This document shows positions 1 through 29,040 of a stretch of DNA of 64,000 nt, in pieces (positions within the stretch are counted from its first letter, which is position 1; each line of letters opens with the position of its first letter). The notes under the pieces were generated by a model that saw only the letters and a list, made by a program, of their open reading frames with translations, was not told the DNA's origin and did not search any database. Origin of the DNA: Armatimonadota bacterium (GTDB lineage: Bacteria; Armatimonadota; DTGP01; JAKQQT01); NCBI GenBank assembly GCA_036504095.1, contig DASXVS010000026.1, positions 124,001 to 188,000 on the forward strand. The letters are read 5' to 3'. Position numbers and translations under genes: made by a program.

Positions 1-296
1 CCCGGGCAAGCATCCTGTGGCGGGTGGTGCTTCCTCTTTCCAGGCCGGCGCTCGCCACGCTCGGAATCTTTACTTTCGTCGGCGCGTGGAACGATTTCCT
101 CGGCCCGATGGTCTTTCTGGATTCCGTGGACAAGTACACCCTGCCGGTCGGCATCGCCCTGTTTCAGAGCTCGTACTACGCGGAATACAGCCTCACGTTG
201 GCCGCCAGCGTGATTTGCACCCTCCCCGTGCTGATCGCGTTCCTCCTCTTCCAGAAGAACATCATCGAGGGAATCGCGCTTACGGGCCTGAAGTGA
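1..296 (+). CDS. Sugar ABC transporter permease, MalG/CUT1 type (5' end outside window)
   Basis: Only the C-terminal part is present; the reading frame is open to the window edge. The visible residues contain the core of a binding-protein-dependent permease, with a GAWNDFLGPMVFL segment, two hydrophobic helices, and the family's usual end (QKNIIEGIALTGLK, compare the common QRYFVRGIALTGLKG). The protein would sit in the inner membrane and pair with a second permease and an ATPase that must lie to the left. Its TGA stop at 294-296 lies inside the 3' end of the convergent GH95 gene, a 17-bp tail-to-tail overlap. The substrate cannot be read from this fragment; the neighbours suggest oligosaccharides from plant cell walls. 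Confidence 0.85.
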   Translation, partial: RASILWRVVLPLSRPALATLGIFTFVGAWNDFLGPMVFLDSVDKYTLPVGIALFQSSYYAEYSLTLAASVICTLPVLIAFLLFQKNIIEGIALTGLK

Positions 297-5086: not shown

Positions 5087-5149
5087 CAACGTCTCCTTTG
5101 CGTAATCCATCGGCCGGCAAACGGGGCGCCGCTTCCCGGCCGTTGCCCC

Positions 5150-5866
5150 CTACGGTTTCCGGGTCGCGACCGGTTGTCCGTAATAGGCGCCCGGCCCGTG
5201 CTTTCGGAGGAAATGCTTGTCCAGCAGGACCTGTGGGATAGGCGGGCAGTTGGCCAACCGGTACGTATCCAGCGCCATCCCGGCGACAAAATCGAGCACA
5301 ACGGCGTTTTCCAGCGCCTTGGCGGCCGTGCTGCCCCACGTGAACGGGCCGTGGTTCGCCACGAGGACACCTGGAACTTGTGTGGGATCAAGACCGCCAT
5401 CCCGGAAACGCTCGATAATCACCGAACCGGTGTTGGCCTCGTACGCCTCCCGGATCTCCGCCTCATTGAGCGGGCGGGTGACCGGGATGGCGCCATAGAA
5501 GCTGTCCGCGTGGGTCGTCCCCAGGCAGGGAATCTCGACCCCTGCCTGGGCGAACGCGGTTGCATACCGCGAATGGGTGTGAACGACGCCGCCGAGCGCC
5601 GGGAATGCGCGACAGAGCGCCAGATGAGTCGGAGTGTCTGAGGACGGGCGTCCGTCGCCATCGACAACCGCGCCCGTCTCCAGATCCAGAACCACGATGT
5701 GTTCCGGACGGAGTTGTTTGTAATCAACTCCGCTCGGTTTGATCGCCAGAACGCCCTCGTTCCGATCCACGCCGCTTGCATTGCCCCACGTAAGGACCAC
5801 GAGCCCAGCTTCAACCAGCCCCATATTCGCCGCATACACGGCTTCCCGGAGTTCGGCGTATTTCAT
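5150..5866 (-). CDS. araD: L-ribulose-5-phosphate 4-epimerase
   Basis: AraD converts L-ribulose 5-phosphate to D-xylulose 5-phosphate, delivering arabinose carbon to the pentose phosphate pathway in the cytoplasm. The 238-residue protein is a class II aldolase-fold enzyme of normal length. It shows the N-terminal LVEAGLVVLTWGNASGVDR and KPSGVDY phosphate-binding motifs, the metal-binding HTHSRYATAFAQAG pair of histidines, LGTTHADSFYGAIPVTRPL, and the HGPFTWG histidine. Its ATG overlaps the araB stop in an ATGA arrangement (5863-5866), so translation is coupled. GH127 follows after a short gap. Identification is firm. Confidence 0.95.
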   Translation of the reverse strand: MKYAELREAVYAANMGLVEAGLVVLTWGNASGVDRNEGVLAIKPSGVDYKQLRPEHIVVLDLETGAVVDGDGRPSSDTPTHLALCRAFPALGGVVHTHSRYATAFAQAGVEIPCLGTTHADSFYGAIPVTRPLNEAEIREAYEANTGSVIIERFRDGGLDPTQVPGVLVANHGPFTWGSTAAKALENAVVLDFVAGMALDTYRLANCPPIPQVLLDKHFLRKHGPGAYYGQPVATRKP

Positions 5867-7554
5867 CCGCGCGCCTCGTCGCGAAGCTGCAGGAGGTCCT
5901 TCATCACCGCGGACAGATCAGAGGTCCGCCCTTGGATTCCGAGCGCGTCGTGCATCTTCTGGTAGAGGCGGAACAGCCTCTCATACGTTGCCGCGCTGTC
6001 CGCATTCGGGGTAAAGGCGCGTTCCTGGATGCCGGTCATAGCATCCGCGGCATCATCGAAGGAATCAAATCCGCCCGCAGCTTTTCCGGCGACGACGGCC
6101 GCCGCCATGGCGGAACCAAGGGCGCACGTCTGATCGCTTCGAGATATCTGCATGGGCCGGTTCATGACGTCGGCATAGATCTGCATCACAAGCGTGTTCT
6201 TTGCCGCGATACCGCCCGCATTGACGATGCGATCCACCGTTACGCCATATTCCTCGAAGCGCTCCACAATCATCCGCGCTCCGAAGGCGGTTGCCTCGAT
6301 GAGCGCCCGGTATATCTCGGCCGGTGTCGAGTGCAGCGTGAGGCCGAGGATCAGGCCGGTGAGGCGCTGATCGACCAGAACCGTCCGGTTGCCGTTATGC
6401 CAGTCCAGCGCCAGCAGTCCGGTCTCGCCCGGTTTGAGCTTGGAGGCGCCCAGAGTGAGCGCTTCATGGGAGCCTGCCTCCCTGCCGCCGGGCTGAATGA
6501 CGTTGACGAACCAGTTGAAAATGTCCCCCACCGCCGACTGCCCCGCCTCTAGTCCGTACATGCCGGGCAGAATGGACTCCGGCACGATACCGCATAACCC
6601 GGGGATGTCCGGAAGGTCGCGATCCATTTTCGCGACCATCATGTCGCACGATGAGGTGCCGAGGATCTTTACCAAAGCCCCTGGCGTGATGCCGCAGCCG
6701 ACGGCGCCGAGGTGAGCGTCAAATGCGCCGATGGCCACCGGTATGCCCGGCCTCAACCCCAAATCGGCCGCCCATCGCGGAGACAAGCCGCCCGCCGATT
6801 CCGCGACGGTAGCGGCGACGTTGGGCAGCGTCCTCCTCAGCGCCGCAAGGCGCGGATCCAGAGCGGCGAGGAACTCCTCGTCGGGGTAGCCTCCCCAGGC
6901 TGCGTTGAAGAAAGCCTTGTGCCCCGCCGCGCACGCGCAGCGTTTGATCTCGTCCGGGCTTTCGGTCCCGGTCAGAACGGCGGGAATCCAGTCCGCGATC
7001 TCCACCCAAGTCGCCGCGGCCTCCACGATCTCAGGGGCTACTCGCGCGCAATGGAGAATCTTGGACCAGTACCACTCCGACGAATAGCGGCCGCCGCATT
7101 TGGCGAGGTATTCGGGACGCATGACAGCAGCCAGCGCCGTTATCTCCTCCGCCTCGGCGTGAGCCGTGTGGTCCTTCCACAGCCAGGCAAGGGCCGGCAG
7201 TGAATCCGCGAATGCCGGCTGCGCCGCCAGGGGCTGTCCGTCAGCGTCCACGGGCAGCGGGGTGCTGCCCGTGGTGTCAACGCCGATCCCGATGACCTGC
7301 TCGGGGGAGAAGCCCGGAACCGCCCCCGCCTCTTTCAACACGGCACGCACCGTCTGACGGATTCCGTCCAGGTAATCCAGCGGGTGTTGGCGCGCAAGGT
7401 TCGGGTCCGCCGGGTCCAGCACAACTCCGGCCTCGCCGTGGGCGTACCCGTGAACGCTGGTCGCGATTTCACGGCCGGAGGAGACCTCCACCAACAGCGC
7501 CCGCACGGTGTTCGTCCCGAAATCCAGGCCTATGGTATATCTCGTATCGCTCAT
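5863..7554 (-). CDS. araB: Ribulokinase (FGGY family)
   Basis: AraB phosphorylates L-ribulose with ATP. The 563-residue protein has the FGGY actin-like ATPase fold: the N-terminal IGLDFGTNTVRALLVE phosphate loop, the GVDTTGST segment, and the ribulokinase-specific VKILGTSSCDMMVAKMDRDLPDIPGLCGIVPESILPGMYG region, then a C-terminal half with NAGGIAAKNTLVMQIYADVMNRPMQ. The frame extends to a GTG at 7593, but the ATG at 7554 has GGAAG 8 nt upstream and aligns with the family N-terminus. It is followed immediately by araD. A repeat-bearing gap of about 300 bp separates it from the isomerase gene, so it may have its own promoter or depend on read-through. Confidence 0.95.
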   Translation of the reverse strand: MSDTRYTIGLDFGTNTVRALLVEVSSGREIATSVHGYAHGEAGVVLDPADPNLARQHPLDYLDGIRQTVRAVLKEAGAVPGFSPEQVIGIGVDTTGSTPLPVDADGQPLAAQPAFADSLPALAWLWKDHTAHAEAEEITALAAVMRPEYLAKCGGRYSSEWYWSKILHCARVAPEIVEAAATWVEIADWIPAVLTGTESPDEIKRCACAAGHKAFFNAAWGGYPDEEFLAALDPRLAALRRTLPNVAATVAESAGGLSPRWAADLGLRPGIPVAIGAFDAHLGAVGCGITPGALVKILGTSSCDMMVAKMDRDLPDIPGLCGIVPESILPGMYGLEAGQSAVGDIFNWFVNVIQPGGREAGSHEALTLGASKLKPGETGLLALDWHNGNRTVLVDQRLTGLILGLTLHSTPAEIYRALIEATAFGARMIVERFEEYGVTVDRIVNAGGIAAKNTLVMQIYADVMNRPMQISRSDQTCALGSAMAAAVVAGKAAGGFDSFDDAADAMTGIQERAFTPNADSAATYERLFRLYQKMHDALGIQGRTSDLSAVMKDLLQLRDEARG

Positions 7555-7629
7555 GTTCAGATCTTCCGTTCGTTGCGTATGAATTAGCTTCACGTATATG
7601 CGTTACGCCCACTCAGCGATAGAACCCTG

Positions 7630-7801
7630 GTAGGGTCGGCGTCCTCGCCGACCACCAGGCGCTTGGCTGGCGCTCCGCGCCGGTTGGCCGGCGTCCTCGC
7701 CGACCACCGGCCGCTAGGCCGGCGCTCCACGCCGGTAGGCTGGCGCTCCGCGCCGGTTGGCCGGCGCTTCGCGCCGGATGGCGGCGAGGACGCCGCCACT
7801 A
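7630..7801. repeat. Cluster of about seven short palindromic GC-rich repeats
   Basis: Seven consecutive units of about 21-22 bp occur, each a small palindrome built on GCCGGCG-nTCCnCGCCGG or GGCGTCCTCGCCGAC. Successive units differ at the loop and flanking bases. They lie between the isomerase-family gene and araB. An 88-codon open frame through the region only translates the repeats. They could form a run of hairpins in the transcript. The units have no unique spacers, so this is not a CRISPR array. Confidence 0.7.
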
Positions 7802-7852
7802 CCATTCCGGTCGGGAAATGTCGCTGCTTCACCTGAAGCTCAGCAAGTGGGA

Positions 7853-9256
7853 TCAAGCTTCGTGACGATAGACGTCCCAGTCCATATAGGTGGTGAGCGC
7901 TTCCTCCACGGCATCCGCCACCTGGGCTTTGGTGGTGGCCACGTGATGTTCGAAGCCGTTGCGGCAGATGAACTGGAGGAGGTCCTGGAAGCGCGGAATG
8001 TGCACCACGCCGTATCCGCCAAAGGTCAGAAGCTTGTCATCGGTGAACGTTCCCTCACCCACGAACGCGCGGATCATCCCCATCGTATCGTCCGTTGAGA
8101 CGCGGGCATAGGTGAACGGCCCTGGGGCAATCCGGCCAACAATCGTGCCGTACGTGTTGTCTTGGCCAACCGTTCCGGCGATGATCTCCTGGTAGTCCAT
8201 ATGGTGCTCGAGGAAGAATGACTTGGGCAGGTTGGAGCAGTGGAACAGAACCGCCTTGTCGGGGTCGTTGCCGTAGTTGTTGTTCCAGTCCAGAATCGCC
8301 GAAGCCCGGCCGGACGCGGACTGGAGCACATACATGCCAATGAGGCCGGCGATGTCCGTTTCGCACGCGCTGGGCATCAGGCTGTCGCTCATCATGCTCA
8401 TGATCGTGCAGGGAACGACACCGTAGAACTCTTCCATCGCCGTCCAGCACTGGATGGCGGTCGCGGACAGGTCGTTTTCCTCAACGTATTTGTCGATCAC
8501 CGCGCCGAGTTTGGCCATCTTGATCAGCGGCTCGTGGGCGACTCCCTCAACTGTTGTGTACTCGCGGATCGCATCCAGCTTGTTCGTTACGATGGGATCG
8601 GTATCCGACAGGTTCTTGATGCGTCCGAGGACCTCGGAAAGGTCAAGCGTCTCGACGGTGATGCCGCTCGCTTGCAGCAGCTTTTCGCTGTACCGGACCG
8701 TATTGAACGCCGCAGGCCGGGCGCCTATCGCGCCGATGCGCGCGTGCTTCAGGGCCTTCACCACGCGACAGGTTGCGGCGAAGGTCTGGAGGTCATGTGC
8801 AAATTCCTCGCTCGTCGGCGAAACCGTATGCGACTTGGTGAGCGAATACGGGATGCCATACTGGCGCAGGTTGTTGCAGCTGGACATCTTGCCGCAGAAC
8901 GAATCGCGGCGATCCTTGATTGTCATGCGCGAGAAATCATCGGGCGTTGCCTGGACCAGGACAGGGACGTTCAGCTCCGCCCAGTGAATGCTATTGACGA
9001 TGGTGCGCTCCTCGCCGAAGTTCGGCAGCGTGAGGATGATCCCGTCGATCTCGTCGCGATGCGCCCGAAACAGCTCGGCGCATTTTCGTGCGTCCGCCAG
9101 CGTCTCAACGGCTCCATAACTGCTGTCCTCGGGCGTGAGGGCGATTGCCTTGATACCCTGCTTCTCCAAAGTCGCCAGGATGTCCCGTCGGCCACCTTCA
9201 CACAGGTGGGAGGGGAAGAAGCCGCGATTGCCTACGATAACTCCAAACGTTGCCAT
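7853..9256 (-). CDS. L-fucose/L-arabinose isomerase family protein, candidate arabinose isomerase
   Basis: The 467-residue protein has the architecture of the FucI/AraA superfamily: an N-terminal Rossmann-like part (GVIVGNRGFFPSHLCEGGRRDI, then GIILTLPNFGEE), a middle part with MEEFYGVVPCTIMSMMSDSLMPSACETDIAGLIGMY supplying acidic metal ligands, and a C-terminal domain ending in RFQDLLQFICRNGFEHHVATTKAQVADAVEEAL. It is closer to the fucose isomerase-like group than to classical AraA. Because araB and araD follow directly and no classical araA is present, the likely role is L-arabinose to L-ribulose isomerisation. That role is inferred from context; L-fucose remains possible given the GH95 gene. 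The start has AAGGAG 6 nt before ATG. Confidence 0.8.
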   Translation of the reverse strand: MATFGVIVGNRGFFPSHLCEGGRRDILATLEKQGIKAIALTPEDSSYGAVETLADARKCAELFRAHRDEIDGIILTLPNFGEERTIVNSIHWAELNVPVLVQATPDDFSRMTIKDRRDSFCGKMSSCNNLRQYGIPYSLTKSHTVSPTSEEFAHDLQTFAATCRVVKALKHARIGAIGARPAAFNTVRYSEKLLQASGITVETLDLSEVLGRIKNLSDTDPIVTNKLDAIREYTTVEGVAHEPLIKMAKLGAVIDKYVEENDLSATAIQCWTAMEEFYGVVPCTIMSMMSDSLMPSACETDIAGLIGMYVLQSASGRASAILDWNNNYGNDPDKAVLFHCSNLPKSFFLEHHMDYQEIIAGTVGQDNTYGTIVGRIAPGPFTYARVSTDDTMGMIRAFVGEGTFTDDKLLTFGGYGVVHIPRFQDLLQFICRNGFEHHVATTKAQVADAVEEALTTYMDWDVYRHEA

Positions 9257-9325: not shown

Positions 9326-11761
9326 TCAGGCCCTGCTGCCGATCTTCAGCACGGTTACAGAATGAGCCGGGAACGTGTACACGAAACTCGGGCTCTTCAA
9401 CGATATTGATCTGCGGGTGGGCGCTACATTGGTCGGGTTCTCCAATGTGTTTTCATCCGCGGGCTTGCCCGTCAACGTCACTGCTTCGGCCGATGGCCCC
9501 ACGTGCGAAATGCCTTTCAGATCGACCCGCGTGACGCTGGCGCTGCCGGAGGTGTTGACCACCTTCAGGACGATGTCCTTGCGATCACCCTTGATGCCTG
9601 CCACCGCGAACAGGGAGTTCATCCGGGGCAGTGCGGCGGAGATCGCGGGTTTGTTATCCACAAAACAGCGCACGTTTGAGCCTGTTACCTCGACGCGGAT
9701 ATCATACCACCGACCGGTTTCGATGGTGCCGGGCACCCGCTTGCCGGCCTCGATCTGGGCGCCATCAACGTTCACCTGGATCGCATGCTCCCGGTTATCC
9801 CAGCCGCCAAGGTTGACCTGAATCCAGTTGGCCGCGTCTTTGGCCCGCACCAGGATCAGGAAGCCTTCGTTTCCGCTGATTTTGCGCGCCTTCAGCGTCA
9901 GCGTATAGTCGGACCAGTTGGGGTCCCCAATCACGGAGCGGCGTTCGGTGCCCAGGTCCATCTGGCGGTAGGCCCCGTCCTGGATGGACCATTCGCCCCG
10001 CGCCGGCTTCCACCCGTCCGTCCCCTTACCGGCGTCCCACGCAAAGAGGCTCTTGCCGTTCCTGCTGACGCGGATATCCTTGAATTCCGCCTGGGTGCGC
10101 CAGGTGCCGACACCGACGGCGCCGGTCCGGGGCGCGCCAGTGGACTGCGCGCCGTTTTCCAGTGTCAGCGGCAGCACGGCGTCACCTTTGTAGTCCTGGA
10201 AAAGCTTTTGAACGTAGTACGACGGCGTCCCGTAGGCGCGGGAGCTGTCGAAGTTGATGAGGTCCGGGTTCCACTTCTTGTAGTTCACATTGGCGAACAG
10301 AGGAGCGTAAGAGGCCATTTCCACGATGTCCGAGTTGCGTTCCATGCCGGTCATGAACGCCGCTTCCCCCAAGGCTCCCGCAAGGCTGCCCTGGCCGTTT
10401 CCCTCGGTCACGGCGTACTCGCCCACATAGATCTTCGGGCCTTTGCGATCGTAAGTATCATACTTGTTCGCGTTGGCGATGAAGAACCCCGGGGCGCTGT
10501 AATAGTGCTCATCCACAATCTGCACAGGCCTGCTGGTTGGCAGTCCACCCCAGAGGTCGGCAATCAGGCGCACCTGCGGATATTTCGCCGTTATGGCGTC
10601 GTAGAACAGGGCATAACGCTCGTTGTACGAAGGACCGCCGTTCTCGTTTCCGATCTCCATGTACTTGAGGTTGAACGGGGCGGGGTGACCGGCAGCGGCG
10701 CGCCTTGCGCCCCAAGTGGAAGTCGCCGGCCCGTTGGCGTACTCGATGGCGTCGAGCGCATCCTGGACATATTCGCCCATCTGTTCCATCGGAACCACCC
10801 CGTGGTGGCTCATCCCTACGTTGATGACGAAGAGCGCGGAAGCGCCCAAGTCCTCGCACAACTGGAGGTATTCGTGGAATCCCAACCCGTTTCCGGACTG
10901 GTATTGCCACAGGTTATACTGGGTGCGCCGGTCGGCGACATCGCCGATCGTCTGCTTCCATCGCTGCGAGGTGGCCATCGTGTCGCCTTCGACCCAGCAC
11001 CCACCGGGGAAGCGCATGAATGACGGCTTGAGATCGGCCAGTTTGCCCGCAAGGTCCGGCCGCATGCCGTTGGCCCTCTGCTTGAACGTATCCTTCGGGA
11101 AGAGCGACACATTATCCAGCAGGACCGTCCCAGTGCTGTTCACACTTAACACGAGGCGGGCTTTGGGGCTTGCGGCGGAGGCGGCGAGCGTCGTTCCGTA
11201 GCGCGCCCACCCCCCGCCGGCCGGCTGGATTTGCCCGGTTGCCAGGACAGCGCCATCCGGCGCCTCGAGGCGGGCCGTGATCGTGCCGGTGAAATCAGCT
11301 TGCGCTTTCGCGGCCAACGAGAGGCTGTAACTCGCGCCGGCGCGGACATCCATGCCCCAGTATCCCTCGTTGATGATGCCGAAACTGCCGGACGACAGCG
11401 AATCCACCTTGATTTGCAGCGCATGCTTGTTGAACGTCGTGGCCTCCGGCCTGCTTACCACGGTGGCGGTTCCAACGGCGTCGCCGGTCTTGACGACAGA
11501 CCAGGGCTCGATGGTATCAGATTCTTCAAACGATCCGTTGCTGACGAGTTCGGCGTACAGGCCGCCGTCCCCGGCGTGGTTGATCTCCTCGAAGAAGATG
11601 CCCCACAGGCTTGGGCTTACCTGATGCCCGGGCTTGTCGACGTTCACGGTAAGCGAGGCGGTCGGGCCCGTTGAGGCTGGCCGAGGCGCGGCTGTTGCTG
11701 AAAAGGTTGCGCCAAGGAGACCGGCGCCAACCAGCGAACTCAATGCGTGCAAGAAGTTCAA
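9326..11761 (-). CDS. Secreted GH51 alpha-L-arabinofuranosidase with carbohydrate-binding modules
   Basis: The frame is open from 12190, but the likely start is TTG at 11761: GGGGAGAAAG lies just upstream and a signal peptide follows (NFLHALSSLVGAGLLGATFSATA). The 811-residue product opens with the GH51 motif SPSLWGIFFEEINHAGDGGLYAELVSNGSFEE, then a CBM4/9-like sandwich (about residues 60-210), and a catalytic barrel with acid/base Glu373 in IGNENGG and nucleophile Glu448 in VGEYAV. A module around residues 540-730 (TWRTQAEFKDIRVSR to VRCFVDNKPA) is inserted before the GH51 C-terminal sheet; the same module occurs in the gene at 55974-57893. The enzyme should remove arabinofuranosyl side chains outside the cell. 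It heads the leftward arabinose series, 69 bp before the isomerase gene. Confidence 0.9.
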   Translation of the reverse strand: MNFLHALSSLVGAGLLGATFSATAAPRPASTGPTASLTVNVDKPGHQVSPSLWGIFFEEINHAGDGGLYAELVSNGSFEESDTIEPWSVVKTGDAVGTATVVSRPEATTFNKHALQIKVDSLSSGSFGIINEGYWGMDVRAGASYSLSLAAKAQADFTGTITARLEAPDGAVLATGQIQPAGGGWARYGTTLAASAASPKARLVLSVNSTGTVLLDNVSLFPKDTFKQRANGMRPDLAGKLADLKPSFMRFPGGCWVEGDTMATSQRWKQTIGDVADRRTQYNLWQYQSGNGLGFHEYLQLCEDLGASALFVINVGMSHHGVVPMEQMGEYVQDALDAIEYANGPATSTWGARRAAAGHPAPFNLKYMEIGNENGGPSYNERYALFYDAITAKYPQVRLIADLWGGLPTSRPVQIVDEHYYSAPGFFIANANKYDTYDRKGPKIYVGEYAVTEGNGQGSLAGALGEAAFMTGMERNSDIVEMASYAPLFANVNYKKWNPDLINFDSSRAYGTPSYYVQKLFQDYKGDAVLPLTLENGAQSTGAPRTGAVGVGTWRTQAEFKDIRVSRNGKSLFAWDAGKGTDGWKPARGEWSIQDGAYRQMDLGTERRSVIGDPNWSDYTLTLKARKISGNEGFLILVRAKDAANWIQVNLGGWDNREHAIQVNVDGAQIEAGKRVPGTIETGRWYDIRVEVTGSNVRCFVDNKPAISAALPRMNSLFAVAGIKGDRKDIVLKVVNTSGSASVTRVDLKGISHVGPSAEAVTLTGKPADENTLENPTNVAPTRRSISLKSPSFVYTFPAHSVTVLKIGSRA

Positions 11762-11851
11762 GGCTTTCTCCCCGAAAGGCGAGCGAAAACACTCGCAGGT
11801 CACACACGATAGATAGATTGCGGCCGGGCCTCCGCGCCGCCCTTTACCGCC

Positions 11852-11880
11852 ATTATACATTGCGCCATGGACTAATGTTG
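11852..11880 (-). promoter_or_regulatory. Candidate promoter of the leftward arabinose series
   Basis: On the minus strand a perfect TATAAT (11852-11857) stands 17 bp from CAACAT (11875-11880), about 90 bp upstream of the GH51 start. The weak -35 box overlaps the 9-mer ATGTTGAAT (11875-11883, read on the plus strand) that is also present in the promoter of the second ArsR-type regulator. A palindrome GAATAGTATTC follows at 11880-11890. The divergent intergenic region 11762-12016 shows nothing else clear. Confidence 0.45.
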
Positions 11881-12016
11881 AATAGTATTCGTCATCCGCG
11901 ATTCGCTCGCGCACGCCGACGCTTGTTCGCCACTTGCCGGCAGGCTCCCGCCGCGGTATCATGGAGGCGATGCCCGAATGCATTCCAGACTCGCCCAAAG
12001 ATAGGTCAGCAGACCG

Positions 12017-12970
12017 ATGAATACCCGAACCCTGAACCTTCACGATGAACGAGACGCCGATGTGTTTCGCGCCCTTGCGTCCGACGTGCGGGTCCGGATC
12101 CTCGACCTCCTCGGCCGCGAACCGATGAATATCAACGCGCTGGGCCAGGCGCTGGGCCTTTCCGCCCCGACCGTGACACACCACATCCACTCACTGGAGC
12201 AGGCTGACCTCGTGGTGACGGAATACGCCCAGGGCACCCAAGGCACACAGAAGATTTGCAACGCCCGTTACGGCAGCCTGGTGGTTTCCCTCGAAGAAGC
12301 GCTGCCTCCCAAGGAACAGGTCGAACAGATTGAGCTCCCGGTCGGCCTTTACACGAATGTCCAGCCCCAGGGCACGTGCGGACTGGCCAATTTGGAGCGA
12401 ATCATCGGGTTCTACGACGACCCACAGTCTTTCCTCCTGCCGGACCGCCCCAGCGCGCACATCCTGTGGATGGCGGAAGGGAGCGTCGAATACGTCTTCC
12501 CGAACAGACTGCCGACTTCCGTAACCATCGACCGGCTTGAGCTGTCCATGGAAATGTGCTCCGAAGCGCCGGAATGCAACAACGACTACCCATCCGACAT
12601 CACACTTTGGATCAACGACGTCGAAGTCGGAACGTGGACATCGCCCGGAGACCTCGGCGACCGCCGAGGCCGCCTTTTCCCGCCGTGGTGGCCGGCACGC
12701 ATCGCCCAGTATGGCATCCTCACCCATTGGACCGTGAGCCACGGCGGCTCCTATCTCAATGGCGAGCGGGTCTCGGACGTAGCGCTTGAACAGGCTCAGA
12801 TATCGCCTAGACGGCCCATCTCGGTCCGCATCGGAGTGAAGCCGGACGCTGCAAACGTCGGCGGGTTCAATCTGCTGGGGCGCGGCATCGGCGACCACGA
12901 CCAGGGTCTTCTGATGCGCCTTTTCTACGCACAGAACCCGGACACCTTGCGCTCGAGCATCGAGTCGTAG
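12017..12970 (+). CDS. ArsR-type transcriptional regulator with large C-terminal domain (copy 1)
   Basis: Residues about 14-75 form a winged helix-turn-helix of the ArsR/HTH_20 type (DVFRALASDVRVRILDLLG, then INALGQALGLSAPTVTHHIHSLEQADLV). About 200 further residues follow, far beyond a normal 100-residue ArsR protein. That region contains IIGFYDDPQSFLLPDRPSAH, VEYVFPNRLPTSV, NNDYPSDITLWINDVEVGTWTSPGDLG and ISVRIGVKPDAANVGGFNLLGRG, which reads as a beta-rich sandwich. No cysteine or histidine metal site of metal-sensing ArsR proteins is visible. It is divergent from the GH51-isomerase-araBD series, so it probably controls that series. A close paralogue lies at 26792-27763. A carbohydrate-sensing role for the C-terminal domain is inferred. 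Confidence 0.85.
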   Translation: MNTRTLNLHDERDADVFRALASDVRVRILDLLGREPMNINALGQALGLSAPTVTHHIHSLEQADLVVTEYAQGTQGTQKICNARYGSLVVSLEEALPPKEQVEQIELPVGLYTNVQPQGTCGLANLERIIGFYDDPQSFLLPDRPSAHILWMAEGSVEYVFPNRLPTSVTIDRLELSMEMCSEAPECNNDYPSDITLWINDVEVGTWTSPGDLGDRRGRLFPPWWPARIAQYGILTHWTVSHGGSYLNGERVSDVALEQAQISPRRPISVRIGVKPDAANVGGFNLLGRGIGDHDQGLLMRLFYAQNPDTLRSSIES

Positions 12971-12977: not shown

Positions 12978-14015
12978 CTACGCCACATCGATCATGGCTT
13001 TCACAACCCCGTCGCCGTACGCAGCCACCAGGTCGAACGCCTCTTTGACCCGCTCAAGCGGGAAGCGGTGCGTCACCAGGAAATCCACGTCAAGCCGTCC
13101 GGACGCCATTTTGTCCAGGGTCTCCTGAACGCAGCCTTCCTGCCGCCGAACATTCTGGATACAGATCTCTTTCCTTCGGAGCTGATCGATGGAGAAACTC
13201 ACTCGATTCTCTTCAGGAATTCCGACCAGCATCAGTTTGCCGCCCGGCTTCAGCATCTGCACGGCCTCATCCATCGCCGATTGCTGGCCGCAGCACTCGA
13301 ACACAACATCCAGGCCCAACGGCTCCAGCGCGGAGAGGTCTGCAACCACGTCCTGCCGATCCGGATTTCCCGTCCACGCCGCTCCCGCATTGCGCGCCAT
13401 GCTGAGGCGATCATCGATCTTGTCCGTGACGTATACCGCCGCGGCCCCTTCACTGACCGCGTTGGCGAGGACGCAGAGCCCGATCGGGCCGCCCCCGAGA
13501 ATTCCGACCTTAGCGCCGGCCATCGGCACAGACCGGTGCACGGCGTACACCCCGATCGCGAGCGGTTCCGACAACGCGGCCTGGGTTAGGCTCAGGTCCT
13601 GGGGTAGCCGATAGCACGATTCCTGCGGCATCACGAGGTATTCGGACAGACACCCCGGAACCTGGCCGGGACAACCCAGGAACAGTAGTTTGCGGCACGT
13701 GTGCGAACGGCCGGCAAGGCACTGGTCGCACTCGAAACACGAGATTGCCGGATCCACCGCGATGCGATCTCCCGGCTTGACACGTGTGACCCCGGGCCCC
13801 ACCTCTTCAACGATGCCGGCGCATTCATGTCCCACCGCATACGGGAACTGAATGACCTGGCTGCCGATCCTGCCTGTGGTGTAGTAGTGAATATCGGACC
13901 CGCAAACCCCAACCGTGGTCACACGGATTTTTACGTCCCCGGGCTGGGTGATTTCCGGCGTTGGCAGCTCGCGCAACTCCATACCCCGGATTCCAGTCAA
14001 AACCGCAGCCGTCAT
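12978..14015 (-). CDS. Zinc-dependent polyol (sorbitol/xylitol/arabinitol-type) dehydrogenase
   Basis: The 345-residue protein is a medium-chain zinc dehydrogenase of typical length. Catalytic zinc ligands Cys38 (GVCGSD), His63 and Glu64 (GHEC) are present, as are the structural zinc cysteines Cys93, Cys96, Cys99 and Cys107. The Rossmann signature is VGILGGGPIGLCVLANA. The longest frame starts at GTG 14030, but AAGGAG lies 6 nt before the ATG at 14015, which is preferred. It should interconvert a polyol and a ketose with NAD(H). In this setting L-arabinitol, xylitol or a related pentitol is plausible but inferred. It ends 7 bp from the convergent regulator and is divergent from the GH51-GH43-ABC operon. 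Confidence 0.85.
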   Translation of the reverse strand: MTAAVLTGIRGMELRELPTPEITQPGDVKIRVTTVGVCGSDIHYYTTGRIGSQVIQFPYAVGHECAGIVEEVGPGVTRVKPGDRIAVDPAISCFECDQCLAGRSHTCRKLLFLGCPGQVPGCLSEYLVMPQESCYRLPQDLSLTQAALSEPLAIGVYAVHRSVPMAGAKVGILGGGPIGLCVLANAVSEGAAAVYVTDKIDDRLSMARNAGAAWTGNPDRQDVVADLSALEPLGLDVVFECCGQQSAMDEAVQMLKPGGKLMLVGIPEENRVSFSIDQLRRKEICIQNVRRQEGCVQETLDKMASGRLDVDFLVTHRFPLERVKEAFDLVAAYGDGVVKAMIDVA

Positions 14016-14080
14016 ACACTTCTCCTTCACACACTCCGGGTTGTCCGTGGAAACGACCCGCGCACTGCCCCTTTAGATTG

Positions 14081-14110: not shown

Positions 14111-14242
14111 ATTTTACGATGATGCACACCCCGGGCGGGCGCAGGCAAATCGCGGGGAACTGAAACGACCTGCGCTGCGGCCGAACCACAGGGGCCATGA
14201 GCATAGAATTAGCCGCGATGTTTGATGGAGGACCAGCGAATA

Positions 14243-16087
14243 ATGGTTAGCGAAAATACCGTACCGGCGGAGAAACGATCTGTTCTGATCGACGCAACGA
14301 CCGAGGGTGAACCCATTTCCCAGTATATCTACAGCCAGTTCATTGAACACTTGGGCCGATGCATCTACGGCGGCATCTGGGCGGAGATGCTGGACGACCG
14401 CAAGTTCTTCGATGGCGTTGGGAGCGAGGCTTCACCCTGGAGCGTGACTGGAAGCGGCGGCGTGGATATGGATGCCGTGAATCCATTCGTTGGTGAACAC
14501 ACCCCGTGCGTTAGCCTCCCCGGCAACGGCACGCCCGCCGGCATCGCCCAGAGTGGGCTTACCGTGGTCGCCGGCCGGAGTTATGTCGGCCGGATCTGGG
14601 TTTCGGGCGACACGAACGCCACCCCGGTGGAAGTAAGCCTGATTTGGGGTGACGGCGATTCGGAACGTCAGACTATCACCATCGGCCCGGTCGGTGAAGA
14701 CTACGTCAAGGCCCCCCTTCAGTTCACCGCCGGCAGGACCACGGACAACGCCCGATTCGAGGTTGTTTCGCGCGGCAGCGGCCGCTTCCGGGTGGGCACG
14801 GCATCGCTCATGCCGGCGGATAACATCCGGGGAATGCGACCTGACACGCTGGACGCGATGCGTGAACTGGATTCGCCACTCTACCGGTGGCCCGGCGGCA
14901 ATTTCGTGAGCGGCTACGACTGGCGCGATGGCATCGGTGATCCCGATCGCCGCCCGCCGCGCAAGAACCCGGCGTGGCGAGGGGTCGAGCACAACGATTT
15001 CGGCATGCATGAATTCCTGGATTTCTGCCGCGAACTCAACACCGAGCCGCTCATCGTTGTGAACACGGGCTTTGGCGATGCGCATTCCGCCGCGCAGGAA
15101 GTGGAGTATGTCAACGGTACCGCCAACACACCGATGGGCCAGTGGCGCGCCGCAAATGGGCGTGTGGAACCGTGGGCAGTTGAGTGGTGGGGTGTTGGCA
15201 ATGAGATGTTCGGCCCCTGGCAGCTAGGATTCATGGCGGTCGAGCAGTACGTGCTGAAGCACAAGGATTTCGAGCGCTCCATGCGGAAGGTGGATCCCAC
15301 GATCAGGACGATTGGCGTCGGCGAGTCCGGGCCGTGGTCGGAGGCGTTCATGGCGCAATGCGGCGGTGACATGGACCTCATCAGCGAGCACTTCTACTGC
15401 AAAGACAAGGCCGATGTGATCGAACACGTGGCACAGATTCCGAGCGAAATCCGGAGAAAGGTCGAAGATCATCGCCGGTATCGGAAGGATCTGCCGGCAT
15501 TGAAGGGCCGGGACGTTCGGATTGCGATGGACGAATGGAATTACTGGTACGGTCCGGACATCTTCGGCGAATTGGGCGTGCGCTATTTCTGGAAGGACGC
15601 CCTTGGCATCGCCGCCGGGCTTCATGAGTTTTTCCGCCAGTCCGACATGGTCTTCATGGCGAATTATGCGCAGACCGTCAATGTCCTCGGCTGCATCAAG
15701 ACGACCCCGACAGCGGCCGCGCTGGAATCCGCCGGGCTTGTGTTGAAATTGTACCGCCAGAAGTTCGGCGTAATTCCGGTGAAGGTGGAAACGGGAGTGA
15801 ACGGTGTGGACGTCTCAGCTGCGCTCACCGCCGACAGGAAGGCGCTCACCGTGGGCGTAGTAAACGCCAGCGGCGTGGTTCAAACGATGGCCATCCAGGC
15901 GAAGAACATCACGGCCTCCGGCGCCGGAACGGTGTATAAAATGGCCTGTGATGACGTGATGGCGCTCAATGACCCGGGCAAAGACCCAGTCATCACGATT
16001 GAGGAGCGCGGCGTTACCGGATACAACGGAAGCGTCACCGTCGAGCCATACAGCGTCACCATCTATGTGCTGGACGTCGCGGCATGA
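14243..16087 (+). CDS. Intracellular GH51 alpha-L-arabinofuranosidase
   Basis: This 614-residue protein has no signal peptide and the standard intracellular GH51 layout. The N-terminal sandwich starts ISQYIYSQFIEHLGRCIYGGIWAEML; the catalytic barrel has acid/base Glu321 in GVGNEMFGPW and nucleophile Glu431 in AMDEWNYWYG; a C-terminal sheet ends VEPYSVTIYVL. It should release L-arabinose from short imported arabino-oligosaccharides. The start at 14243 is chosen because GGAGGA stands 10 nt upstream; TTG and ATG codons at 14222 and 14225 precede the SD. It begins a rightward operon with GH43 and the ABC transporter. Together with the secreted GH51 this gives one enzyme on each side of the membrane. 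Confidence 0.92.
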   Translation: MVSENTVPAEKRSVLIDATTEGEPISQYIYSQFIEHLGRCIYGGIWAEMLDDRKFFDGVGSEASPWSVTGSGGVDMDAVNPFVGEHTPCVSLPGNGTPAGIAQSGLTVVAGRSYVGRIWVSGDTNATPVEVSLIWGDGDSERQTITIGPVGEDYVKAPLQFTAGRTTDNARFEVVSRGSGRFRVGTASLMPADNIRGMRPDTLDAMRELDSPLYRWPGGNFVSGYDWRDGIGDPDRRPPRKNPAWRGVEHNDFGMHEFLDFCRELNTEPLIVVNTGFGDAHSAAQEVEYVNGTANTPMGQWRAANGRVEPWAVEWWGVGNEMFGPWQLGFMAVEQYVLKHKDFERSMRKVDPTIRTIGVGESGPWSEAFMAQCGGDMDLISEHFYCKDKADVIEHVAQIPSEIRRKVEDHRRYRKDLPALKGRDVRIAMDEWNYWYGPDIFGELGVRYFWKDALGIAAGLHEFFRQSDMVFMANYAQTVNVLGCIKTTPTAAALESAGLVLKLYRQKFGVIPVKVETGVNGVDVSAALTADRKALTVGVVNASGVVQTMAIQAKNITASGAGTVYKMACDDVMALNDPGKDPVITIEERGVTGYNGSVTVEPYSVTIYVLDVAA

Positions 16088-16139
16088 TCCGCGCCGTTGG
16101 CGGGGGCGGGCGGCGGTCGGTCTACGTAAGGAACGGTCT

Positions 16140-17183
16140 ATGATGGCAAACCTGACATCTTTCCTGCCGCCCCTGGCATTGCGGTGGGCCGTGTTGGGCG
16201 CTATCGGAGGGGGTCTGATGCAATTGTCACCCGCCTGCGCCGACGCGGAAAAGGCGAAGGAGCCTGAGTTCAACGCCATCATCAATGTGCATGACCCCAA
16301 CGCTATCAAGGCCGGCAAGTACTATTACGTGTTCTCAACCGGCCCGGAGGTCATGATCCGACGATCCAAAGACCTCGTTCACTGGACCTACGTGGGCAGC
16401 GCCTTTCCCGGCGGAACACCGGGCTGGGCGCTGAAGGAGATCCCGGGCGCAAGGTCGGATTCCATCTGGGCGCCGTCCATCTCCAAAGTGAACGGCCAGT
16501 ACCGGCTGTATTACGCCGTTTCCAGGTTCGGCAGAAACCGATCGGTCATTGGGCTGGCCACGAACAAGACGCTGGACCCGGACAGTAAGGACTACCGGTG
16601 GGTGGACCAGGGCAAGGTCGTCGAATCCCAAACGACGGATGATTTCAACGCCATCGATCCGGCATTCTGCAGCCTTGATGACAAGCGCGGCGTCCTGTCA
16701 TTTGGGTCCTACTGGTCCGGCATAAAGGCTGTGCAAATCAGCGTGAAAACCGGCAAGCCCCCCGCCGGAGCGAAGACATTACCGATCGCCCAGCGACCGT
16801 TCCCCGATGCCCTTGAAGGGCCGGAGATCGTGCATATCGGAGCCCATTACTACCTCTTTGTTTCGTTCGACACTTGCTGTCAGGGTATCAACAGCACTTA
16901 CAATATCCGTGTCGGGCGTTCGACCCGATGGGATGGTCCGTACGTTGACAAGGACGGCGTATCCCTGATGCAAGGGGGTGGCACCCTGCTGCTGGCAACC
17001 GCGGACCGCGAGATCGGCCCGGGACACTGCTCGGTTCTCGCGGACGGTTCCAAGCGTTGGCTGGTGTACCACTTTTACGATCGAGACAACAACGGCATAC
17101 CGACACTGCAGTTGAGGCCGCTTTCCATCGGGAAAAATGGCTGGCCTGTGCTGGGCTCCCCGCTCATCCCCGCGAGACCATAG
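16140..17183 (+). CDS. Secreted GH43 endo-1,5-alpha-L-arabinanase
   Basis: The 347-residue product has a signal peptide (ALRWAVLGAIGGGLMQLSPACA) and a single five-bladed GH43 propeller. The catalytic base is Asp52 in NVHDPNAIK, the pKa-modulating aspartate is in DFNAIDPAF, and the catalytic acid is the glutamate of LEGPEIVHI. The arabinanase signatures SIWAPSISKVNGQYRLYYAVSRFGRNRSVIGLATN and SFGSYWSGIKAVQIS match AbnA-type enzymes better than xylosidases. It should cut the alpha-1,5 backbone of arabinan outside the cell. The open frame begins further upstream (15969) inside the GH51 gene, but AAGGA 7 nt before the ATG at 16140 fixes the start. It lies 52 bp after GH51. Confidence 0.9.
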   Translation: MMANLTSFLPPLALRWAVLGAIGGGLMQLSPACADAEKAKEPEFNAIINVHDPNAIKAGKYYYVFSTGPEVMIRRSKDLVHWTYVGSAFPGGTPGWALKEIPGARSDSIWAPSISKVNGQYRLYYAVSRFGRNRSVIGLATNKTLDPDSKDYRWVDQGKVVESQTTDDFNAIDPAFCSLDDKRGVLSFGSYWSGIKAVQISVKTGKPPAGAKTLPIAQRPFPDALEGPEIVHIGAHYYLFVSFDTCCQGINSTYNIRVGRSTRWDGPYVDKDGVSLMQGGGTLLLATADREIGPGHCSVLADGSKRWLVYHFYDRDNNGIPTLQLRPLSIGKNGWPVLGSPLIPARP

Positions 17184-17331: not shown

Positions 17332-18855
17332 ATGGGCGATGGCGCCGTGCTGCTTGAAATGCGGGGTATATCCAAGCGATTCCCCGGCGTGCTGGCCCTG
17401 GACGGGGTGGATTTTACCCTTCGGGCCGGCGAGATACACGCCCTCATGGGGGAGAATGGCGCCGGCAAATCCACTCTGATCAAGGCGCTGACGGGGGTAT
17501 ATCCGCGCGATGCCGGCGAGATCAAACTCAATGGCGAGCCCTTCCTGGCAAAATCTCCCGGGCACGCTCAGGAACTGGGCGTCAGCACCGTATATCAGGA
17601 AGTCAACCTCATCCCTACCCTCTCGGTTGCGGAAAACATTTATCTCGGCCGCCAACCGATGAAATTCGGGCGCATTGACTGGAAGTCCATCAAGCGCGGC
17701 GCAGAGGAAGCGCTCCGACGGCTGGATATCACCGTGGACGTCTCGCGAACGCTCAGCTCATGCTCCATCGCGATCCAGCAAATGGTCGCTATCGCGCGGG
17801 CGCTTGACCTCTCGGCGAAACTCCTGATTCTAGACGAGCCCACGTCCAGCCTTGACCCCGACGAAGTGGAGCGTCTCTTCGCGTTGATGCGGCGCCTGAA
17901 GGAAGACGGGCTGGGCATCATCTTTGTCACCCATTTTCTGGGGCAGGTTTACGAAGTCTGCGACCGCATCACCGTCCTGCGCAACGGGCGCTTGGTAGGC
18001 GAATACGAGACGGCGGAGTTGAGCAGGCTGGACCTCATCGCGAAAATGCTCGGTAAGAACCCCGAGGAGCTTCCCGAAATGGCGCGCTCCGCGGAGAACG
18101 GCGCCGAATCCCGCGCGGAGCCCTTCCTCCGGTGCAGGGGCGTTGCGCGCCGGGGCAGCGTGGAACCGCTGGACCTGGACGTTGTCGACGGCGAAGTGCT
18201 GGGGCTCGCCGGCTTGCTCGGTTCGGGCCGCAGCGAGGTGGCCCGCCTCCTGTTCGGCATCGAGAAGGCTGACCGCGGCGAGATCACCCTGGAAGGCAAG
18301 CCCATTGCCCTCACAACAGCTCGGCGGGCCATCGGCGCGGGCTTTGCGTTCTGCCCGGAAGACCGGAAGACGCACGGCATCATCCCCGATCTTTCGGTGC
18401 GCGAGAACATCATCCTCGCGCTCCAGGCCAGCAAGGGCTTCTTCAACCGGCTTTCCTACAAAGCCCAGACCGAGATCACGGATAACTATATCAAGGCTCT
18501 TTCAATCGTCACTCCCGATGCCGATCAGGCGGTGAAGTACCTTTCGGGAGGAAACCAGCAGAAGGTCATTCTGGCGCGCTGGCTGGCCTCCAACCCGCGG
18601 TTCCTTATCCTGGATGAACCAACTCGCGGCATCGATGTCGGCTCCAAATCGGAGATTGAGAAACTGGTTCTCCAGTTGGCCGCCGAGGGAAAGGCTGTTC
18701 TCCTTATCTCCTCCGAACTCGACGAGGTCGCCCGCTGCAGTACCCGGGTGGCGGTCCTGCGCGATCGGCACAAGGTTGGCGAACTCAGCGGAGTCGAAGT
18801 GAGCGAGAACGCGATCATGCAGACCATCGCCCGAAAGGAGGCCACCATTGGCTGA
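17332..18855 (+). CDS. ytfR: Sugar ABC importer, double ATP-binding protein (YtfR type)
   Basis: The 507-residue protein has two fused ATP-binding domains as in the ribose/galactofuranose (CUT2) class. The first domain has Walker A GENGAGKST (about 40-48) and Walker B LLILDEPTSSLDPDE; its signature is LSSCSIAIQQMVAIARAL, degenerate as in YtfR. The second domain lacks a normal P-loop (GLLGSGRSEVARLLFG) but has a full LSGGNQQKVILARWL signature and LILDEPTRGIDVGSK. It energises import through the two permeases encoded directly downstream. Its last codons overlap the next gene by 8 bp. The close match of both downstream permeases to YtfT and YjfF supports the galactofuranose-type subgroup. Confidence 0.9.
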   Translation: MGDGAVLLEMRGISKRFPGVLALDGVDFTLRAGEIHALMGENGAGKSTLIKALTGVYPRDAGEIKLNGEPFLAKSPGHAQELGVSTVYQEVNLIPTLSVAENIYLGRQPMKFGRIDWKSIKRGAEEALRRLDITVDVSRTLSSCSIAIQQMVAIARALDLSAKLLILDEPTSSLDPDEVERLFALMRRLKEDGLGIIFVTHFLGQVYEVCDRITVLRNGRLVGEYETAELSRLDLIAKMLGKNPEELPEMARSAENGAESRAEPFLRCRGVARRGSVEPLDLDVVDGEVLGLAGLLGSGRSEVARLLFGIEKADRGEITLEGKPIALTTARRAIGAGFAFCPEDRKTHGIIPDLSVRENIILALQASKGFFNRLSYKAQTEITDNYIKALSIVTPDADQAVKYLSGGNQQKVILARWLASNPRFLILDEPTRGIDVGSKSEIEKLVLQLAAEGKAVLLISSELDEVARCSTRVAVLRDRHKVGELSGVEVSENAIMQTIARKEATIG

Positions 18856-19924
18856 CGGATCACTCACCCCGGGCTCCGGGGCAACGGTGGCGCCCGCCCC
18901 CGGAGACGCCGGGGCAAACAGGGAGCGTTTTACGCCCAAGCGTCGAACAAACAGTCTCCTCTGGCCACTGATTGCTCTTGCCCTGCTGTTGCTGTTCAAC
19001 CTGGCGTTCACACCGGGCTTCTTCAGTGTGCAGATCAAGGATGGGCATTATTATGGCAGCCTGATAGACGTGCTGAACCGGGCAGCCCCCGTGATGCTGC
19101 TGGCGCTGGGTATGACGCTGGTCATCGCGACAAAGGGGGTCGACCTCTCGGTTGGCGCCGTTATGGCGATTTCCGGCGCCCTGGCCGCTCAATTGATCGT
19201 GCGATACCACTCACCGCTCGCCGTCATCATCGCTGTACCACTGCTGGTCGCGCTGGTTTGCGGCATCTGGAACGGCATTCTGGTTGCCGTTGCGGAAATC
19301 CAGCCGATTGTTGCGACCCTGATCCTGATGGTTGCCGGTCGTGGCATCGCCCAACTGATTACCAACGGCCTGATCCTGACTTTTGACGACAGGGCATTCC
19401 AGTTTATTGGCCAGGGGCATCTCTTCCGCCTGCCGTTTACCGTAACACTCGTTGGCCTGGCGCTCCTGCTCACGGCGGTCGTGACCCGCCGGACCGCGCT
19501 GGGCCTGTTCATAGAATCGCTGGGAAACAACGAAGCGGCGAGCCGTTACGCGGGCCTGCGCACGACTGCCGTGAAGATCTCCGTATACGCCTTCTGCGGG
19601 CTCTGTGCGGGTCTGGCGGGCCTTATCCCGGTCTCCGATATCCAGGGAGCGGACAGCAACAACGCGGGCCTCTATCTCGAAATGGACGCGATTCTCGCCG
19701 TTGTGCTTGGCGGGACGTCTCTAAACGGCGGGCGCTTCTACCTCGTAGGCAGCCTTATTGGAGCGTTGATTATCCAAACGCTTACGACGACCATCCTGTC
19801 CCGTGGCGTCCCGTCGCAGATGACGCTTGTCGTCAAAGCCATCGTGGTGCTGATAGTCTGCCTGGTTCAGTCTGCTGAGTTCCGCGCCACCGTGGCGCGC
19901 GTGTTCGGAAGGGAAGCCTCGTGA
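18848..19924 (+). CDS. ytfT: Sugar ABC importer permease (YtfT type)
   Basis: The 358-residue multi-helix inner-membrane permease closely follows E. coli YtfT: GSLIDVLNRAAPVMLLALGMTLVIATKGVDLSVGAVMAISGA, then IQPIVATLILMVAGRGIAQLITNG and IQGADSNNAGLYLEMDAILAVVLGGTSLNGGRF. The start is TTG at 18848, inside the ytfR stop region, with AAAGGAGG 6 nt upstream; this indicates translational coupling. The N-terminal 35 residues before the first helix are longer than usual and glycine/alanine-rich. It partners with the next gene to form a heterodimeric channel. Confidence 0.9.
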   Translation: MADGSLTPGSGATVAPAPGDAGANRERFTPKRRTNSLLWPLIALALLLLFNLAFTPGFFSVQIKDGHYYGSLIDVLNRAAPVMLLALGMTLVIATKGVDLSVGAVMAISGALAAQLIVRYHSPLAVIIAVPLLVALVCGIWNGILVAVAEIQPIVATLILMVAGRGIAQLITNGLILTFDDRAFQFIGQGHLFRLPFTVTLVGLALLLTAVVTRRTALGLFIESLGNNEAASRYAGLRTTAVKISVYAFCGLCAGLAGLIPVSDIQGADSNNAGLYLEMDAILAVVLGGTSLNGGRFYLVGSLIGALIIQTLTTTILSRGVPSQMTLVVKAIVVLIVCLVQSAEFRATVARVFGREAS

Positions 19925-20886
19925 AGCCTCGAATCTCCCAGCATCATATTCCGCTCCTCGCGACGATGGTCGTCTTCGCCCTGTTGTACATCATCGCCGC
20001 GGCCCAGTTTCCGGCTTTCCGGCGCCCCGCCATCTTCGGCAACTTCTTCTCCGACAATGCCTTCCTGGGTGTTGCGGCTGTGGGGATGACGTTCGTTATC
20101 CTCTCCGGAGGGATCGACCTGTCGGTCGGGGCGATCGTCGGAATGACCAGCATCCTGGTAGCGGTTCTGATCCAGAACCGCCACTTCTCCCCCCTGCTCG
20201 CGGTGGCCGTTGCCCTGGTGATCGGCACAACGCTCGGCGCGGGCATGGGTGCGGTGATCCGCTACTTCAAACTCCCCCCGTTCCTCGTAACGCTCGCCGG
20301 CATGTTTCTGGCCCGCGGCTCGGGGTTCCTCATAAGCGTCGAGAGCGTGCCCATCAAGGACGCGTCGTACGCGCGCCTCTCCGAGTGGTCATTGTCCCTG
20401 GGGCCGGTGGACGTGCCGGCGACGACATTCATCTTTGTGGCGGTGCTCCTGCTGGGGATTGCCCTGGCGCACGGCACGAAATTCGGGCGCAACGTTTATG
20501 CGCTGGGCGGCGACGATGACGCCGCGAATCTGATGGGACTTCCCGTCGGGCCGACGCGGTTGCGGATATACGCCTTCAGCGGGTTCTGCAGCGCACTTGC
20601 CGGCGTCGTCTATACAATCTACAGCGCATCCGGCAACGCGAGCGCGGCAAACGGGCTTGAGCTTGACGCGATCGCCTCGGTGGTCATTGGCGGAACACTT
20701 CTTACGGGCGGCGTCGGGTACGTGGCCGGAACGCTGATGGGTGTCCTCATTTTCGGCATCATCCAGACGTACATCACTTTCCTCAACCTTTCGTCATGGT
20801 GGACCAAGATCGCGGTGGGCGTTCTGCTGCTGTTCTTTGTGCTGATTCAGAAGGTGCTGGCCCGCCCGGCCGCGCGGACGTCTTGA
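19921..20886 (+). CDS. yjfF: Sugar ABC importer second permease (YjfF type)
   Basis: The 321-residue permease matches YjfF: FFSDNAFLGVAAVGMTFVILSGGIDLSVGAIVG, LPPFLVTLAGMFLARGSGFLISVESVPI, ANGLELDAIASVVIGGTLLTGGVGYVAGTLMGVLIFGIIQTYITF and LSSWWTKIAVGVLLLFFVLIQK. Start is GTG at 19921 in a 4-bp GTGA overlap with ytfT. Together with the upstream ATPase and permease and the binding protein at 25460 it completes a YtfQRT-YjfF importer. E. coli YtfQ binds galactofuranose. Given the surrounding arabinofuranosidases the substrate here is probably a furanose such as L-arabinofuranose; that is inference. A strong hairpin follows the stop. Confidence 0.9.
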   Translation: MKPRISQHHIPLLATMVVFALLYIIAAAQFPAFRRPAIFGNFFSDNAFLGVAAVGMTFVILSGGIDLSVGAIVGMTSILVAVLIQNRHFSPLLAVAVALVIGTTLGAGMGAVIRYFKLPPFLVTLAGMFLARGSGFLISVESVPIKDASYARLSEWSLSLGPVDVPATTFIFVAVLLLGIALAHGTKFGRNVYALGGDDDAANLMGLPVGPTRLRIYAFSGFCSALAGVVYTIYSASGNASAANGLELDAIASVVIGGTLLTGGVGYVAGTLMGVLIFGIIQTYITFLNLSSWWTKIAVGVLLLFFVLIQKVLARPAARTS

Positions 20887-22442: not shown

Positions 22443-22678
22443 GGGTATCCTCATCTATCGAATCTGGGCGCCGGGCCCGCCGTACTTGTGCTCCGGCAGG
22501 AACCTTCAGGACATGCCCGGCAATGTGCTATCACCTTTTCCATAATGCAGTATACACTGTGTGGTATCAATGGGCGCGGCAAGCGACCACGCCCATCCTG
22601 CTTCAGATTGTACCATGGCGTTGAGACGTGTGCGCTCGCTAGCGTTTCCGCGCGTAATCCCGATTCCGAGGTTGACAG

Positions 22679-26733: not shown

Positions 26734-26762
26734 TTGCAGGAATATGTTGAATCGAGTATAAT
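26734..26762 (+). promoter_or_regulatory. Promoter of the second ArsR-type regulator
   Basis: TTGCAG (26734-26739) and a perfect TATAAT (26757-26762) are spaced by exactly 17 bp, 30 bp before the start codon. The spacer carries ATGTTGAAT (26744-26752), the same 9-mer that overlaps the promoter beside the paralogous regulator. An ATATTC/GAATAT pair flanks the -35 box. This suggests autoregulation. Confidence 0.6.
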
Positions 26763-26791
26763 AATAATCATCTCAGCATAAAGGCGGCAGG

Positions 26792-28810: not shown

Positions 28811-29040
28811 TCATACAACCAAATAGCGGAGGCCGGGGCACTGTGCGCCCCGGCGGATAAGAAGCGTCGCAACCCTGCGCGACGCTGATAACAGAACAAC
28901 GTTCCGATCATTCTATTCCGCGCTGGCGCAGCGTATTTCCACCACGCGCGCTCAGGGCGGGGCACGCATGATCGAACGGTTCTCGGCAGTCCTCTACGGC
29001 AGCGGTTTGGCCGCCGCGTTGGCGCCGGAGCGGACAGCAT
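28811..29040 (+). ncRNA. Conserved leader element, copy 1 (candidate structured RNA)
   Basis: This non-coding stretch before the 1117-residue gene aligns with 33620-33853 before the 956-residue gene. The conserved blocks are a CCGGGGC-loop-CCCCGG hairpin whose loops differ, a CCCTGCGCGACGCT hairpin, AACAACGTTCCGATC, TTTCCACCACGCGC, and a GGCAGCGGTT...GCCGCCGCGTTGGCGCCGGA block, with variable spacing between them. Coding regions on either side begin differently, so the leader is conserved independently. It may be an untranslated regulatory RNA or duplicated promoter region. No named riboswitch fits. Confidence 0.4.

Follow-up and report, generated by a model that had tools for sequence, protein, structure and literature searches.

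The gene at positions 12017–12970 of the 64,000-nucleotide stretch of Armatimonadota DNA analyzed here (hereafter, the window) encodes a protein (P1) for which, as for its paralogues, the best reading is that of a one-component regulator responding to arabinosides, probably as a repressor, through a sensor of the carbohydrate-binding type; this interpretation, built on sequence comparisons and structure models, we consider likely. The family to which P1 belongs is not a local curiosity, as it is widespread, counts hundreds of members and is essentially unstudied. The broader proposition, that this ArsR-type family reads imported (arabino-)oligosaccharides directly in several phyla, through a CBM-like sensor that has a homologue in an accessory domain of GH2 glycosidases, seems to us about evenly poised between right and wrong. 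The window features that bear on both are the following:

280–2670, minus strand: GH95 glycosidase (domain search)
2696–9256, minus strand: GH127 beta-L-arabinofuranosidase, class II aldolase, FGGY kinase and fucose-isomerase-like protein (pentose catabolism)
9326–11761, minus strand: GH51 alpha-L-arabinofuranosidase, divergent from P1, start inferred (Pfam ASD1_dom 2.8e-52, Alpha-L-AF_C 2.9e-35)
11762–12016, no strand: divergent intergenic region GH51/P1, candidate regulatory region
12017–12970, plus strand: ArsR-type regulator P1, divergent paralogue (317 aa, ATG start)
12074–12223, plus strand: winged helix-turn-helix of P1, residues 20–69 (Pfam HTH_20, HTH_5; Foldseek)
12317–12934, plus strand: C-terminal beta domain (CTD) of P1, residues 101–306, proposed ligand sensor (AF2; GH2 accessory-domain homology)
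12978–14030, minus strand: zinc-type alcohol/polyol dehydrogenase (Pfam ADH_N, ADH_zinc_N)
14222–16087, plus strand: second GH51 arabinofuranosidase (Pfam Alpha-L-AF_C 5.4e-16)
15969–17183, plus strand: GH43 glycosidase, overlapping the GH51 ORF, true start probably downstream (Pfam Glyco_hydro_43 2e-37)
25460–26527, plus strand: periplasmic sugar-binding protein, directly upstream of P2 (Pfam Peripla_BP_4 9e-51)
26755–26768, plus strand: candidate operator of P2, AGTATAATAATAAT, a 10.3-bit match to GYTATNNTNATARC over the -10 box
26792–27763, plus strand: paralogue P2, canonical family member (323 aa, winged-helix Pfam matches)

The plus-strand ORFs at 17332–20886 we take, from family knowledge, to encode a CUT2-type sugar ABC transporter (an ATPase and two permeases).

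An earlier note on this DNA had given the coordinates, strand and 317 aa length of the P1 ORF correctly, and its description of an ArsR helix-turn-helix followed by a C-terminal domain of ~200 residues agrees with the domain searches and the structure model. Residues 20–69 exceed the Pfam cut-offs of both HTH_20 (8.7e-11, 42.1 bits vs. 27) and HTH_5/ArsR (2.4e-7, 31 bits vs. 22), while no Pfam match was found beyond residue ~70; the PDB sequence matches of P1 are limited to the helix part, and the winged helix of the full-length model resembles CzrA/SmtB in fold (Foldseek, TMt 0.6–0.7). As a guide to the CTD, the full-length Foldseek search was dropped, since the winged helix and scattered sandwiches dominated its matches and a viral library added nothing but weak, uninformative ones; a CTD-only model was used instead.

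That model (AF2 on residues 106–311, 77 aligned sequences; pLDDT 96.4, pTM 0.91) predicts an all-beta domain with 11 strands and one short helix, which makes the previously given label “beta-rich” the right one. Sequence searches of Pfam, NCBIfam and the PDB returned no relative of the CTD, and none of 18 CTDs matched a Pfam CBM family. Beta sandwiches are common and many of them are carbohydrate-related. Comparing the predicted CTD with PDB folds, the check proposed in the earlier note, returned carbohydrate-binding or -degrading proteins as 43 of the best 50 matches (our own count), including BcsB, cycloisomaltooligosaccharide glucanotransferase, CBM35, CBM36, alginate lyases, malectin and VIP36/Emp47, every match being weak (E about 1e-3 to 1e-2, TM-scores about 0.1–0.6) and the best TMt (0.56) belonging to CBM36 with xylotriose (CBM36 range: TMt 0.51–0.56, TMq 0.34–0.37). 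These matches to a predicted structure support a fold class for the CTD, not a family assignment. The CTD motifs quoted in the note are all present (GGFNLFGRG in P2, the P1 version being GGFNLLGRG), and the conservation is not due to chance: across 142 non-redundant relatives from several phyla, 12 positions have a conservation that rounds to 1.00 (C121, G122, F139, W151, G155, Y159, E179, E183, P222, G233, G288 and G292).

Judged by profile comparison, the CTD core is homologous to the GH2 accessory domain. Profile searches placed it in nine GH2-type enzymes, which are Armatimonadota ORFs of ~840–1117 aa carrying it C-terminally, after the GH2 catalytic domains (GH2 domains were Pfam-confirmed in all five scanned); aligning the regulator CTD with the GH2 accessory domain gave an hhalign E of 9.9e-18 (98.9%) at 24% identity, and a GH2-only profile retrieves both window regulators (2.1e-8 and 1.2e-7) and other regulators down to ~1e-15. 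Missing from the GH2 copies are the ~45 residues at the start of the CTD, and likewise C121, G122, F139, W151 and E183, which are invariant in 69 regulators, and the nearly invariant D194 and Q231, whereas G155, Y159, E179, D212, G233, G288 and G292 are common to regulators and GH2 copies. The loss of the regulator-only residues in the GH2 copies suggests a regulator-specific site, and we infer that this set is the likely ligand or signal-transmission site and that the shared set is structural. As the GH2 copies are without both the ~45 residues and most of the putative pocket residues, a shared fold need not mean a shared ligand.

A divergent CTD copy (E 1e-33) also lies directly after the signal region of a 710 aa protein with a lipoprotein-like N-terminus, no Pfam match being found in the rest of it (L216:196-2328, minus strand, Bacillota genome G430), which is apparently a third, extracytoplasmic protein context of the domain. 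Conversely, the home genome encodes a fourth ArsR protein (L036:6372-7184, minus strand, contig C79:~100 kb) whose helix is 43% identical to that of P1 and whose different C-terminal part matches the VHL beta domain (PF01847, E 2.6e-5), the gene adjoining an apparent glycyl-radical enzyme and its activase; from these sequences, one DNA-binding half seems to have been paired with different sensors.

The gene neighborhoods are rich in genes for arabinoside use: GH51 or GH43 lies within 6 kb of the regulator at 45 of 86 loci, any of GH51/43/2/127/95 is nearby at 65 of them and sugar transport at 51, these 86 loci representing the closest relatives only, many of them on incomplete contigs. The 4.68 Mb home genome has five GH51 and about six GH43 genes, which gives an expectation of ~0.03 for a 13-kb segment, a null that reflects the gene density of this one genome. 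On plasmids, the regulator adjoins an alpha-N-arabinofuranosidase (GH51) and an ABC transporter in Rhizobium, Sinorhizobium, Roseibium and Skermanella, an SBP-permease-permease-GH2(-like)-GH43 set in Priestia (similar sets occur in Deinococcus), and GH43 with an oligosaccharide MFS transporter in Enterococcus.

Two DUF1559 pseudopilin-like proteins are encoded in the window (27867–28649 and 32678–33469, plus strand), the first of them immediately following P2. A gene of this type likewise comes right after the regulator at many Armatimonadota loci (cluster c4, 26 loci) and so may belong to the operon under its control. Several large, probably secreted window proteins (28968–32438, 33892–36762, 20967–22454, 55974–57893 and 62615–63874) have dockerin-like tails of ~60 residues that are similar by eye (e.g., GDVNSNAILDYEDVVNALRIAGGL...ISVLDAVRIDQALGGKAL), with Pfam finding no dockerin domain in those that were scanned. 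A 769 aa protein at 40747–43056 (plus strand) contains five SprB repeats (PF13573, 6.4e-35) in this Armatimonadota genome; such repeats are best known from Bacteroidota gliding adhesins.

A 14-bp palindrome, GYTATNNTNATARC, was found upstream of 46 non-redundant Armatimonadota regulators (LL 61.5, vs. 28–36 for shuffles and 23.5–38.0 for other upstream regions). It often covers the -10 box, 5–40 bp before the start codon, so that part of the motif's signal comes from the promoter itself; its position suits a putative autorepression. The P2 promoter reads TTGCAG-N17-TATAAT, with AGTATAATAATAAT on its -10 box; the match to the palindrome is moderate for P2 and weaker for P3, the third copy introduced below, and in the intergenic region at 11762–12016 the best score is only 2.6, with no convincing P1 operator. 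Scanning the window with the palindrome gave five sites of at least 9 bits vs. 1.9 expected, which is no enrichment, and no regulon is therefore claimed. Two other operator candidates, a 9-mer shared upstream of P1 and P2 (ATGTTGAAT) and a palindrome at 11880 (GAATAGTATTC), were dropped, as they would be expected by chance about 0.7 and 0.24 times, respectively, in regions of that size.

Under the preferred reading, P1 and its paralogues would act as one-component transcription factors, whose ArsR-type winged helix would bind promoter DNA, probably as a dimer, and whose CTD would bind an arabinofuranoside-type sugar or oligosaccharide delivered by the neighboring ABC importers. Without the ligand, the regulator would most likely act as a repressor, both at its own promoter and on the arabinosidase and transport genes beside it, and binding of the ligand would release it from the DNA.

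P1 itself is, going by its sequence, a fast-evolving, divergent member of the family and P2 a canonical one. The two are 55% identical over 304 aa; P2 departs from the family consensus at only one position, whereas P1 has lost K236, D248 and F291 (each at least 95% conserved in the family) and is, with P3 (0.98), one of the two longest end branches of the tree (0.84, the median being 0.11). P3 starts at C26:120286, ~3.7 kb left of the window, as the first gene of a sugar ABC transporter set, which places three regulators within ~32 kb of the arabinoside cluster. The long branch and lost residues, together with the lack of an operator match upstream of P1, would also fit a decaying P1 that leaves P2 as the only working sensor. 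We think this unlikely, since the P1 ORF is intact, the invariant C121, W151, Y159, E179, E183 and D194 are all kept, and P1 and P2 differ less at the first two codon positions than at the third (0.31/0.24/0.62), which indicates that coding constraint has acted. Whether repression is the right sign of the response can also be questioned, as several pentose regulators are activators (e.g., of the AraC type), so that the family might activate its arabinoside genes. The palindrome, however, sits on the -10 box, a repressor position, characterized ArsR proteins are mostly repressors, and the ArsR regulator of Caldicellulosiruptor is called a repressor from its site position in the account given of it (PMC8579813), all of which leaves activation with little weight in our judgment.

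What the CTD senses, if anything, has alternatives of its own. It could be mainly a dimerization or scaffold sandwich, sugar control being exerted via another input (e.g., a co-regulator or a catabolite signal), and both the weakness of the PDB fold matches and the GH2 copies keeping the structural core, not the candidate pocket residues, would agree with this; a polar, aromatic and Cys set that is invariant only in the regulators, and across phyla, nevertheless goes beyond the needs of a scaffold, making this explanation quite improbable to us. The earlier claim that P1 has “no metal site” stood in part: the canonical ArsR/SmtB metal-ligand motif (CxC in alpha3 or alpha5 ligands) is absent from the P1 sequence, but C81 (92%) and C121 (100%) are conserved among the 142 members, C121 being lost in the GH2 and lipoprotein copies of the CTD. 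A modified ArsR protein sensing a metal or a thiol/redox signal through these two cysteines, with the sugar locus as target and not signal, could explain that pattern, and yet, besides the missing motif, the NCBIfam metalloregulator model NF033788 stays below its cut-off of 55 for both P1 (48.4 bits) and P2 (54.2 bits), and the annotated plasmid neighborhoods examined hold no metal transporters or resistance genes, so we regard it as very improbable. The note's central idea, a one-component carbohydrate regulator with a lectin-like domain, is thus favored by the CTD fold matches, the GH2 homology and the GH51/GH43/GH2 and importer neighbors, its metal-free part being only partly secure.

In GTDB genomes, 550 relatives were confirmed by a single strict scan, and the best 80 come from Armatimonadota, Bacillota (Paenibacillus, Cohnella, Alicyclobacillus and Halanaerobium), Chloroflexota, Deinococcota and Pseudomonadota. 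The full-length query has a match in 55 of 151 Armatimonadota genomes (many of these helix-only) and the CTD profile in 36 of 201 (some via GH2 enzymes), the Armatimonadota members forming one side of a supported branch in the tree, and Paenibacillus-type genomes have up to eight regulator copies. One Armatimonadota regulator (L049; G079:C3:343352-344264), which has an intact paralogue next to it, is encoded in two separate frames, with the break after residue ~250, and is either a broken gene or an assembly error. Family members were also found in 263 plasmid records, mostly of Rhizobium and Sinorhizobium, where the usual annotation, if there is any, is “ArsR family” or “helix-turn-helix”. 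COG4189 is possibly the COG of this family, and a literature search on it returned one unrelated paper only. Labels as general as “ArsR” or “helix-turn-helix”, given to hundreds of these regulators, conceal what is probably a means of controlling the use of plant cell-wall sugars by soil Paenibacillus, rhizobia, Deinococcus and Armatimonadota. If the broader proposition is true, an enzyme and a transcription factor share one sugar-recognition module, and such a sensor would show a polysaccharide-recognition module turning into a transcription sensor, and would give an unnamed domain family a testable ligand class.

Among known systems, the ArsR/SmtB metalloregulators (SmtB, CzrA and CadC), which are typically single-domain proteins of about 100 residues treated as metal sensors, have the winged helix fold and sequence in common with P1, which, in contrast, is three times longer, lacks the canonical metal motif and has a large beta CTD and a sugar gene context. 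The GH2 glycosidases (e.g., L034, L161, L162 and L164) have a CTD core homologous to that of the regulators, placed C-terminal of the TIM barrel, but missing its ~45 initial residues and those specific to the regulators. CBM35/CBM36, the carbohydrate-binding domains of BcsB, and malectin are weakly like the CTD in fold (TMt mostly 0.1–0.4 outside CBM36), with no detectable sequence similarity. AraR has a DNA-binding family and a sensor domain unrelated to those of P1. This GntR-family protein is described as regulating arabinose and arabinofuranosidase genes in Bacillus and Caldicellulosiruptor (PMC8579813). An arabinan cluster listed for Geobacillus has the order ArsR-SBP-permease-permease-GH43-GH2 (PMC4428132). 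ArbA/ArbR of Caldicellulosiruptor, an ArsR-family repressor of arabinoside genes predicted in 2021 and divergent from abfA (PMC8579813), partly anticipates the idea of an arabinoside regulator; P1 is likewise ArsR-type and divergent from GH51, the family having GH51 neighbors in other phyla as well, and the passages describing ArbA, on which this likeness rests, mention no sensor domain. The literature searched, outside which most subscription journals lie, contained neither an experiment on a family member nor an account of the CTD. The description of the CTD and of the family appears to be new: the winged helix class and the regulatory job are already known, and the sensor domain shared with glycosidases is undescribed.
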